A DNA stretch of 29,886 nucleotides from a virus. The stretch is from the IMG/VR virus record IMGVR_UViG_3300046665_000413, positions 1-29,886 of that record. One strand, 5' to 3'. Numbering within the stretch: position 1 is the first letter of the stretch; every line of letters starts with the position of its first letter. The translations under genes were made by a program, and so were the position numbers. The notes under the pieces were generated by a model that ran no database searches, was not told the DNA's origin, and saw only the letters and a list, made by a program, of their open reading frames with translations. Positions 1,494 to 4,737 of this stretch are shown one piece after another.

Positions 1494-1609
1494 ACAGAGC
1501 CGCTTTAATTAGATTATCTTCTCCTATATCGAAGGACTGCCCAGAGGGGGCTCTCGAAAGAGACGGGTTCGACTCCCAGTCTAAACATCTAGTTATACCT
1601 TTGTTCTGT
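1494..1609 (+). ncRNA. Y RNA-like module 7 with a non-permuted mini-cloverleaf
   Basis: The outer stem ACAGAGC (1494-1500) pairs with GTTCTGT (1603-1609), one G-U. CCG is at 1500-1502, and the second stem TAATTAGA (1506-1513) pairs with TCTAGTTA (1588-1595). TTATC is at 1514-1518, and CTTTG precedes the 3' strand. The insert folds as a contiguous four-way junction: acceptor-like stem GGACT (1534-1538) with AGTCT (1578-1582), hairpin GCCC-AGAGG-GGGC (1539-1551), hairpin TCTC-GAAA-GAGA (1552-1563), and a T-like arm GGG-TTCGACT-CCC (1565-1577). Unlike modules 2 and 6, the tRNA mimic here is attached through its acceptor stem, not its anticodon arm. Confidence 0.7.
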
Positions 1610-2073: not shown

Positions 2074-3705
2074 ATGTCTTTCAATACCCTCGCAAAGAAT
2101 ACGAATACCCGAGTAGCAGCACGTACCACACCGCAGAACAAGCCTGCTGGCAATGCACCTGTAGCACAGGTTAAGAACAACGCTGGTGGCTTTGTGTTTG
2201 AGATCTCTGGCATTCAAAAGCTGGATCGATTCCTCATCATCGGCACGAGCGGCGGTACGTTCTATGCTAACGAAAAGGATCTCACGAAGCAGAACACTGA
2301 CGAGATCGTGGCTCTGATCAAGGCTAACGGCAAGGTTGTGGTTGACCGTGTGGTTGAGATCAGCCAAGCCGGTCGTGCCAAGAACAATGACTATGCGCTT
2401 CTGGTCATGGCTCTGGTCTTCACCCACGGCGATGTTGCAACCAAGATGTATGCAAAGGATAAGTTGAACCTCGTGGCTCGTACTGGCACGCACTTCATGC
2501 ACTTCGTTGCATTCTCAAATGGGATGCGAGGTTGGGGCCGTTCGCTTAAGAGCGTAGTTCAGAACTGGTATTCCTCGAAGGATACCGATAAGCTGGCATT
2601 CCAGATCGTGAAGTACAAGCAACGTGACGGCTGGTCCCACAAGGACATCATGCGTCTGGCTCACGTTAAGCCTGGTACTGATCCGGTTCGTCAGAACCTG
2701 TACAAGTTCATCAACAAGGGTTCAGAGTCGCTGACGCAAGGTGACCTCGTGCCTCAACTTCTGATTGCTGCAGAGCAAGCCAAGACTGCAGATACGAAGA
2801 CGTTGATCAAGCTGATCCAGGATTTCAAGCTCACGCACGAAATGATCCCGAATGAGCAAAAGAATGACCCGAAGGTTTGGGAAGCTCTCGTGCCTCACAT
2901 GGGTCTGGGTGCGCTGGTTCGTAACCTGAACAAGCTCACGGCAGTTGGTCTGATCAAGCCTTTCTCGGAAACGAGCAAGATTGTCAGTGTCAAGCTTCAT
3001 GACGTAGAAGCAATTCGTCGTGAACGCCTACATCCTATGTCCATTATCGTAGCCCAAAAGGTTTACGCAAAGGGTCAGGGGGATAAGGGTTCGCTTGTAT
3101 GGTCACCTGCACGCAACATCGTGTCGGATCTGGAAGATGCGTTCTATGTTTCGTTTGAAGCAGTAGAACCGTCCGGTAAGAACATTCTTCTTGCTCTGGA
3201 CGTATCTGGTTCGATGAGCTGTGCAATCCCCGGAGCGCCACTGTTGAGCTGTGCTGAAGGCACTGCAATCATGGCAATGGTCACAGCTCGTACTGAGCCT
3301 TGGACCGAAATCCGTGGTTTCACGAGCGGTAGGAATGGCTTCAAGGATCTGGGTATCACGAAGAACGATACCTTGGCTACAGCTTGCAGCAAGGTCCGCG
3401 ACAATAACTTCGGTGGAACGAACTGTGCACTGCCGTTCGAGTATGCGCTTCAAAACAAGTGGGACGTGGATGCTGTCTGTGTTTACACGGATAATGAAAC
3501 GTGGTCTGGTGGCCAACACGTGTTCCAAGCAGCACGCAAGTACCGTCAAGGTATGAACAAGCCTGAAGCTAAGCTTATCACTGTTGGTATGGCAGTGAAC
3601 AACTTCAGCATTGCTGACCCGACTGACCGCAATATGCTGGACGTGGTTGGTTTCGATACGGCAACTCCGAGGTTCATTTCGGAATTTGTGGCTGGCAACC
3701 TGTAA
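2074..3705 (+). CDS. Ro60/TROVE-domain RNA-binding protein
   Basis: This is the phage homologue of Ro60/Rsr, a ring-shaped RNP protein that binds Y RNAs on its outer surface and misfolded RNA ends in its central hole. In bacteria it can tether to the exonuclease PNPase through a Y RNA. The protein is 543 aa, close to human Ro60 at 538. The TROVE HEAT-repeat region covers about 40-360 and includes the family signature GWGRSLKSVVQNWY (153-166) and KYKQRDGWSHKDIMRLAH (180-197). The VWA-like C-terminal domain has an intact MIDAS: D376-x-S378-x-S380 in DVSGS, T449 in GGTN and D473 in YTDNE. I chose the ATG at 2074 because AAAAGGAG lies 6 nt upstream; an in-frame upstream TTG at 2047 lacks such a site. 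The eight Y-like modules upstream are its likely ligands. Confidence 0.95.
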   Translation: MSFNTLAKNTNTRVAARTTPQNKPAGNAPVAQVKNNAGGFVFEISGIQKLDRFLIIGTSGGTFYANEKDLTKQNTDEIVALIKANGKVVVDRVVEISQAGRAKNNDYALLVMALVFTHGDVATKMYAKDKLNLVARTGTHFMHFVAFSNGMRGWGRSLKSVVQNWYSSKDTDKLAFQIVKYKQRDGWSHKDIMRLAHVKPGTDPVRQNLYKFINKGSESLTQGDLVPQLLIAAEQAKTADTKTLIKLIQDFKLTHEMIPNEQKNDPKVWEALVPHMGLGALVRNLNKLTAVGLIKPFSETSKIVSVKLHDVEAIRRERLHPMSIIVAQKVYAKGQGDKGSLVWSPARNIVSDLEDAFYVSFEAVEPSGKNILLALDVSGSMSCAIPGAPLLSCAEGTAIMAMVTARTEPWTEIRGFTSGRNGFKDLGITKNDTLATACSKVRDNNFGGTNCALPFEYALQNKWDVDAVCVYTDNETWSGGQHVFQAARKYRQGMNKPEAKLITVGMAVNNFSIADPTDRNMLDVVGFDTATPRFISEFVAGNL

Positions 3706-3765: not shown

Positions 3766-4324
3766 AAAAAACTGGACACATGTCCAAAAAACTGGACAAG
3801 TCCGTTTTTTACTTTTCCTTTTAAATCAAGGACTTACAGAGGGTGTGTCCAGTGTGTCCAATTTCTCTAAAAAAAACTGGACAGCTGAAACCATTGCTGC
3901 ATAAGGCTTAGAGCCAGATTGTCCAGTTTTTTTGCCTTTTTTCCAAAAACCATACCTCACTTTCTTTTTGACTAAATAAAAAACAAAAAAGGAAAAACAT
4001 AGGGTTCACCCTAACAGTCCAGGAATATGGGGGTACTATATATATATTTATATTTGAACTTTTAAAAAAATATATTTATATATAAGAGAGTGTTTTCCTT
4101 TTTGGTAAGTTTTTTATTTCTAATAGAAAGTGAGGTATGGTTTTTGGAAAAACACGAAAAAAACTGGACAAAATCGCTGTGAGCCTTATAAACAAAGGCT
4201 TAGAGCCTGTCCAGTTTTTTATTTGGAAATTGGACAAACTGGACAGCAATGCTATAACTCATTGTTTTATATATGTTTTCACGTTTCATAGAAAACGGAC
4301 ATTTCTGGACATGTGTCCAGTTTC
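3766..4324. repeat. 559-nt imperfect palindrome with CTGGACA heptamers; candidate origin or operator array
   Basis: The whole intergenic region is an inverted repeat centred at 4045. The best arms are 25 bp and perfect: 3941-3965, starting TTCCAAAAACCATACC, with 4125-4149. Similarity continues outward to TGGACACATGTCCA (3773-3786) and CTGGACATGTGTCCAG (4305-4320). CTGGACA or its complement occurs at 3772, 3792, 3845, 3877, 3920, 4164, 4208, 4239, 4305 and 4314, with close variants between, often beside A or T runs. The centre (about 4035-4085) is almost pure A/T. Iterons around an AT-rich core suggest a replication origin; a partition site, an operator array or a MITE-like element are alternatives. 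No gene here is credible. Confidence 0.75.
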
Positions 4325-4335
4325 TTGTGATTCCT

Positions 4336-4344
4336 TGGTATAAG
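4336..4344 (+). promoter_or_regulatory. Extended -10 promoter for the metabolic operon
   Basis: TGGTATAAG resembles the TGGTATAAT of the Y RNA promoter and lies 24 nt upstream of the deaminase ATG, at the outer edge of the palindrome. No clear -35 is seen. It is placed to drive the tightly packed operon 4369-9719 and could be regulated by whatever binds the adjacent CTGGACA sites. Confidence 0.4.
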
Positions 4345-4368
4345 AGGGACGTACAGTAGGGGTAAACC

Positions 4369-4737
4369 ATGAATAGTAGACTGATAGATAAACTTAAAAG
4401 GTTGGCCCTTGACTCAGCTCAACCTGAAACTGGTAGGTATCGGATAGCAGCAGCAGTCCTTGATCGCAAGGGTAAAATTTTAGCCACTGGAACTAACTCA
4501 TACGTTAAGACCCATCCTCTTCAAGCTGAATACGCTAAGAAGACTGGCAACGGTCATCGTCACTGGCTACATGCTGAGATAGCTGCTTTAGTGAAAGTAA
4601 AGAATGGACTACCTGCCAAGATAGTAGTCGTGAGGGTTGGCAACGCTGGTGAACTAAGACTGGCTAAGCCCTGCTCCGTATGTGAGATGGCTATCAAACA
4701 GGCAGGAATTGAATCAATAGAATATACGGTAGGTTAA
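4369..4737 (+). CDS. Zinc-dependent deaminase of the cytidine/dCMP deaminase fold
   Basis: The 122-aa protein has the hallmark zinc site of the cytidine deaminase superfamily: H68-A-E70, with E as proton shuttle, and P101-C102-S-V-C105. Spacing and length fit a minimal single-domain deaminase. N-terminal strands (YRIAAAVLDRKGKILATGTN, 24-43) match the usual beta hairpin. The substrate cannot be read from sequence; free cytidine, dCMP or another nucleobase are possible, and a dUTPase in the same operon supports a role in making dUMP for thymidylate synthesis. It is first in the operon, downstream of the extended -10 at 4336-4344. The ribosome-binding site is weak (AGGGGT). Confidence 0.8.
   Translation: MNSRLIDKLKRLALDSAQPETGRYRIAAAVLDRKGKILATGTNSYVKTHPLQAEYAKKTGNGHRHWLHAEIAALVKVKNGLPAKIVVVRVGNAGELRLAKPCSVCEMAIKQAGIESIEYTVG

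Follow-up and report, generated by a model that had tools for sequence, protein, structure and literature searches.

The window (the whole 29,886-nucleotide stretch of DNA that was analysed) is a phage fragment. It encodes a phage Ro60 (TROVE + vWA; Pfam PF05731, 2.1e-34, and PF25045, 4.2e-55) on the plus strand at 2074–3705. Upstream of the Ro60 gene lie eight tandem Y RNAs, at 678–729, 767–832, 885–1017, 1025–1090, 1101–1268, 1278–1342, 1350–1481 and 1494–1609. The two-part stem and the CCG...UUAUC motif are present in all eight, and four of them have a short loop only (~11–15 nt), with no tRNA-like insert. Two plus-strand members, 885–1017 and 1350–1481, are permuted (T-first), YrlA-type Y RNAs, in which the T arm is the first arm of the insert. 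The latter matched Rfam YrlA weakly (30.1 bits for the sister module at 1367–1482, the cutoff being 69), and an Rfam scan of the window at the gathering cutoff yielded nothing useful. The Y RNA at 1101–1268 holds a covarying, multi-hairpin insert of 117 nt that is not tRNA-like. In this insert the hairpins are stacked, with a loop of the GGAAAC type, and a GUACUCUGCUUGAGCUAAAGCUA-like stretch is conserved; both sides have changed in 14 predicted pairs across five relatives. We also observed a TATAAT box at ~748–756, just 5′ of the second Y RNA, which the relatives that were read have there too, just 5′ of Ro, a GGCCUG hairpin that resembles a terminator and has a T run, and further structured non-coding blocks at 230–480 and 1640–2035 with repeated CGUAUU and AGAGUAACUCU elements.

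The eighth Y RNA of the array, on the plus strand at 1494–1609 (module 7 of an earlier sequence-only reading), carries a tRNA-like insert in which the T arm is last. Its Y stems form with 6/6 and 8/8 pairs. The 5′ strand (1494–1518, plus strand), the predicted Ro-binding side, comprises the lower stem ACAGAG, the CCG motif, the upper stem and UUAUC, and pairs with the 3′ strand AUCUAGUU...CUUUG...UUCUGU (1587–1609, plus strand). Within the insert, all on the same strand, hairpin h0 (CUUC-9nt-GAAG, 1518–1534) is the counterpart of a capped acceptor hairpin; it was overlooked in the sequence-only reading, and h0-like hairpins are found in most T-last members described below. The closing (acceptor-like) stem is formed by 1535–1538, which pairs with 1578–1581 of the 3′ half (1578–1582); G1534 also pairs in h0. 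Inside this stem lie a D-like hairpin with a shortened loop, GCCC-AGAGG-GGGC (1539–1551; pair probability ~0.92), an anticodon-position hairpin, UCUC-GAAA-GAGA (1552–1563), and the T-like arm GGG-UUCGACU-CCC (1565–1577; pair probability ~0.9), which is the last arm before the Y 3′ strand. The T arm starts 44 nt into an insert of 68 nt, and 7 nt follow it, whereas in the permuted sister modules it begins 18–20 nt into the insert and is followed by 47–51 nt. The arms thus stand in native order inside a closed Y stem, and the YrlA succession of T arm, capped acceptor and D arm is not present. Searches with Rfam RF00005 (tRNA) and RF02553 (YrlA) at E up to 10 gave no match to this module, and ARAGORN called no tRNA there.

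The sequence-only reading had described the module as a contiguous, non-permuted four-way junction. The stems that it proposed are all possible (GGACU 1534–1538 with AGUCU 1578–1582, the hairpins 1539–1551 and 1552–1563, and the T-like arm 1565–1577), almost free of linkers, and 1534–1582 folded alone gave exactly the four-way fold at −17.3 kcal/mol, with 41% of the ensemble. Nevertheless, 91 of 200 shuffles folded as well (z 0.08), and in the prediction for the whole RNA the closing stem had a pairing probability of only ~0.1, against ~0.6 for a rival 7-bp T stem. Explicit candidate structures of the whole RNA fell within ~3 kcal/mol of one another, so that energy leaves the choice of fold undecided; the gap lies inside the error of the model, which omits tertiary contacts between the D and T loops.

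A close Ro homologue was found in seven IMG/VR contigs, of which L001 is identical to the window. The module at 1494–1609 is cleanly missing from L002–L004 (the window unit 1484–1613 is absent in L002), and the array gains and loses whole units. L002 has an additional permuted Y RNA relative to the window, at 4186–4321. In L006 and L012, an HNH-type ORF (4139–4570; Pfam HNH 4.6e-4, just under the cutoff) occupies the place where the last two Y RNAs of the window lie. No more relatives of the window were found with a DNA pattern for the conserved sister module, nor did a Ro alignment search of genome contigs return any.

The only homologue of the module in the data is its positional counterpart in L005 (4443–4551), which runs CCGC-9nt-GCGG, ACG, a CCAGAAGGUCUGG hairpin, AUUAUC, a perfect 5-bp T arm and CGU. 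Like the module of the window, it went unmatched by Rfam tRNA and YrlA at E up to 10. Retained in L005 are h0, the D-like hairpin (CCAGARGG is common to both), the T arm in last place and, in shortened form, the closing stem. Compensatory changes between the two comprise two pairs in h0 (CCGC/GCGG), one in the closing stem (U-A to G-C) and one in the T arm; the h0 pairs were read by hand, MAFFT having misaligned this hairpin. The closing stem of L005, GGACG/CGUCU, overlaps h0, leaving 3 bp if the hairpin at 4466–4482 also forms. The compensatory changes that the sequence-only reading had proposed to look for in the closing stem and the T arm were therefore found, one in each, albeit in a single homologue with a shorter closing stem. 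L005 has no GAAA hairpin, and because of this the "four-way" part of the description is not conserved. The T arm of L005, with its 7-nt consensus loop, is still last. The positions beside its 5-bp stem are unpaired, which rules out the rival extended T stem there.

The design is not confined to these two contigs. When Ro loci were scanned for Y RNAs that close and contain a T arm, 125 hits were T-first and 17 T-last. The T-last hits include duplicate contigs and spurious cases, and shuffled sequence gave about one T-last hit per pass. T-last Y RNAs are spread over at least eight lineages of phage and four loci in bacteria. The phage members are L043, L066 (two copies), L076, L087, L183, L185 (which joined the list through a covariance model hit), L259, L260/L263, L271 and Myrna/Phabba/ScoobyDoobyDoo; the bacterial members are an Ardenticatenaceae MAG (L109), an Armatimonadetes MAG (L117), an Anaerolineae MAG (L122) and Minicystis (L137). 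L097, L100 and L193 were considered and, being unclear cases, left out of the class. L102, L111, L119, L142, L226 and L244 were rejected, being mostly low-scoring closures or inserts spanning neighbouring tRNA-like units. Whole-genome pattern searches in two phyla also hit several ordinary complete tRNAs, control patterns scored here and there as well, and the inspected hits held no Y-closed T-last module besides L109.

The clear members are near-complete tRNAs inside a Y stem, with UA, a D arm (for example, GCUC-AGUUGGUA-GAGC), an anticodon-position arm and a T arm. Seven modules (L117, L043, L109, L076, L066, L122 and L183) matched Rfam tRNA above the cutoff, contiguously inside the Y RNA, several of them with the acceptor truncated (model positions 4–67 and 6–65). 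ARAGORN calls several T-last members tRNAs, and many sit in tRNA clusters. In L066 and L137 the anticodon loop is replaced by a tetra- or triloop; the arm with a GAAA tetraloop at the anticodon position is shared by L066 and the window. When the 3′ strands were swapped among nine members, the mean duplex energy was −14.3 kcal/mol, compared to −19.8 kcal/mol for the own strands, with overlapping distributions.

Covariation was measured in an 11-member MAFFT alignment from which the window and L005 were excluded. In this alignment, 79% of the cells were paired and covariation reached 0.439, compared to 0.228 after shuffling (0/500), and it dropped sharply when the pairing partners were slid. The acceptor helix, which corresponds to the closing stem of the window, was 88.6% paired, and three of its four pairs had changed on both sides. 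The upper Y stem was only 51% paired, since several rows have it out of register. The covariance model R1, built from the same 11 members and run over 37 kb on both strands, placed the module of the window first (24.0 bits, E 6.5e-5), with its hairpin 1539–1551 on the D arm, and that of L005 second (23.5 bits). Permuted modules of the same arrays scored 19.2 bits or less; the margin of ~5 bits is modest because the Y flank and the T arm are common to the permuted modules. These observations support, at the level of sequence, the existence of a Y RNA design with native arm order (D, anticodon, variable, T last) that recurs in unrelated Ro phages and some bacteria. Module 1494–1609 is a minimal member of this T-last class, given that it lacks an Rfam tRNA or YrlA match and that its GAAA hairpin is missing in its only homologue. 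The proposal of a new Y RNA class in the array thus holds as far as the design is concerned, which stands beside permuted modules in both the window and L066 and recurs with covariation, but its example in the window is minimal and its novelty provisional.

The mimic had been proposed to join the Y stem through its acceptor stem instead of the anticodon arm. Across the class, the strand 5′ of U8-A9 pairs either upstream, as the capped hairpin h0, or 3′ of the T arm, as an open acceptor stem. L109, L117 and L137 have an open acceptor stem of 5–6 bp downstream and no h0. In L087, L066b and L122 we found a capped upstream hairpin of 6–8 bp and nothing real downstream; L185, inspected by eye, looks the same, with the hairpin capped and nothing pairing as an acceptor 3′ of the T arm. 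The remaining members, the window included, combine the hairpin with a short acceptor-like helix, usually overlapping by 1–2 bases (more in the Myrna group). In the window, this helix has one homologue with one compensatory change, along with the low predicted probability given above. The acceptor connection therefore describes the three open-stem members, whereas the capped members depart from it and most others are mixed. In L066, the capped hairpin CGAAUC/GAUUCG is identical to the capped acceptor hairpin of a permuted sister Y RNA, which is why "T-arm/acceptor junction" is the better name for the joint. The two sisters, at 1437–1533 and ~1797–1918, have near-identical Y flanks, one with permuted and one with native order. 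In the simplest reading, the T-arm/acceptor junction is where the Y stem attaches, and the acceptor is capped, partly open or open.

Linkage to Ro was assessed with a DNA pattern that covers the 5′ half only (the Y motif, then a D arm within 36 nt) and was applied to all viral contigs with no protein requirement. It hit 28 contigs. In eight of them, a closed Y stem encloses a T arm in tRNA order. Ro is encoded in 8/8 of these and in 0/20 of the other pattern hits; it is on this contrast that the weight rests, an empty search being weak by itself. One of the eight, L267, is the L066 contig, previously found through its Ro. Two others correspond to the isolate phages Myrna and Phabba, to which ScoobyDoobyDoo is a third relative. 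In all three, an annotated tRNA lies inside the Y RNA: a "tRNA Sup TTA" in Mycobacterium phage Myrna (NC_011273, 94710–94781), a tRNA-Ser in Phabba (NC_054714, 93390–93462) and a tRNA-Sup(cta) in ScoobyDoobyDoo (MZ820085, 92270–92338), with Ro some 37 kb away. The annotated anticodon differs among these close relatives, and decoding is therefore not conserved.

We consider module 1494–1609 to be probably a Ro60-binding Y RNA, as predicted from its stems and motif, with a minimal native-order tRNA-like effector end and membership in the T-last class; its arm order, Y flanks, covariation and Ro linkage are established at the sequence level. The T-like loop could instead be a relic or a coincidence in a Y RNA with an ordinary multi-hairpin insert and no cloverleaf, an account that we find unlikely, though it is the likeliest of the alternatives. 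It would fit the missing Rfam matches, the stability no greater than that of shuffles, the loss of the GAAA hairpin in L005 and the clearly non-tRNA-like insert of the array Y RNA at 1101–1268. It does not explain why the T arm of L005 is perfect and still last, why the closing stem and h0 show compensatory changes, or why a model from other T-last RNAs puts the window and L005 on top. Replacement of the cloverleaf by the hairpin GACGGG-UUCGACU-CCCAGUC (7 bp, bulged A), the fold that the sequence-only reading had named as its possible refutation, is doubtful. The full-length prediction prefers this hairpin, but L005 cannot form it, and the preference is one that model error and unmodelled loop–loop contacts could account for.

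The T-last examples as a whole might also be real tRNA genes between Y-like sequences, their products being processed tRNAs. The ARAGORN calls, the frequent location in tRNA clusters and the 5–6 bp acceptor stems of L109 and L137 point in this direction, yet we regard it as very improbable. Both Y strands pair around the modules, the acceptor stems are mostly 3–5 bp with truncated Rfam matches, and the anticodon loops are tetra- or triloops or vary among close relatives. Moreover, Ro accompanies the Y-closed modules alone among the pattern hits, and module 1494–1609 is not called a tRNA.

In the reading of the module as a minimal T-last Y RNA, the effector end would consist of the D-like hairpin, an optional anticodon-position hairpin and the T arm in last place. 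The Y stem would meet the mimic at the T-arm/acceptor junction via a short acceptor-like helix, usually beside a capped hairpin, and would dock on the Ro60 ring. The elbow, formed by the T loop UUCGACU and the D-like loop, may then be presented to enzymes that bind the tRNA elbow, or to a tethered ribonuclease, for example PNPase, at another angle than in YrlA and with no chargeable acceptor end. TruB reads the T-loop consensus, which the module retains; dihydrouridylation appears unlikely, as the D-like loop is shortened and lacks the usual U20. With different Y RNAs in the array, a single Ro60 would be able to serve several partners. In a more far-reaching version, T-last would be a second architecture that had so far gone unrecognised, with a mimic re-permuted at the T/acceptor junction and regaining the anticodon-position arm that YrlA lacks; such RNAs would serve as phage Ro60 decoys or sensors against host anticodon nucleases, the 5′ strand of the acceptor switching between capped hairpin and open stem. 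We give this version little credence, but a decoy role against an anticodon nuclease becomes testable because the T-last RNAs regain an anticodon-position arm.

Ro60 systems thus use at least two ways of connecting a tRNA mimic, even side by side in one array, which argues that the elbow (T and D loops), rather than a particular tRNA end, is the presented part. Among the "suppressor" tRNAs annotated in phages, some belong to Y RNAs. The contrast between T-last and T-first modules offers a direct test of which arm a partner enzyme reads. The parts are known; the connection appears, provisionally, to be new, although the 2014 Y RNA survey, which reportedly covers more than 250 bacterial and phage Y RNAs, may already describe it.

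YrlA is the closest known system. It superposes on tRNA with a circular permutation (PMC11472068). The Ro60 homologue Rsr binds to its Y stem, TruB and DusA act on its tRNA-like end as modifying enzymes, and Rsr is tethered to PNPase by Y RNA (PMC8394870). Salmonella YrlA is not cut by the anticodon nuclease, and competitive inhibition by its mimic has been raised as a possibility (PMC7790460). YrlA (Rfam RF02553; PDB 6CU1) and the T-last Y RNAs are alike in the Y stem with a CCG...UUAUC-type motif, in having T and D arms and in lying near Ro60. YrlA, however, is entered via the anticodon stem and has the order T, capped acceptor, D, whereas T-last Y RNAs have the order D, (anticodon), T last and can include an arm at the anticodon position. 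With tRNA (RF00005) they share the arm order and, in the clearer members (L043, L066, L109 and others), U8-A9 and the D- and T-loop consensus. They differ from it in that the acceptor is short or a capped hairpin, there is no CCA end, the anticodon loop is unconserved and the whole lies inside a Y RNA. The short Y RNAs of the array and vertebrate-type Y RNAs share their Y stem and Ro-binding motif with module 1494–1609 and differ from it in having no tRNA-like insert. The "tRNA-Sup" gene of Myrna covers the tRNA-like portion of a T-last Y RNA, and the Y RNA around it had been left unannotated.
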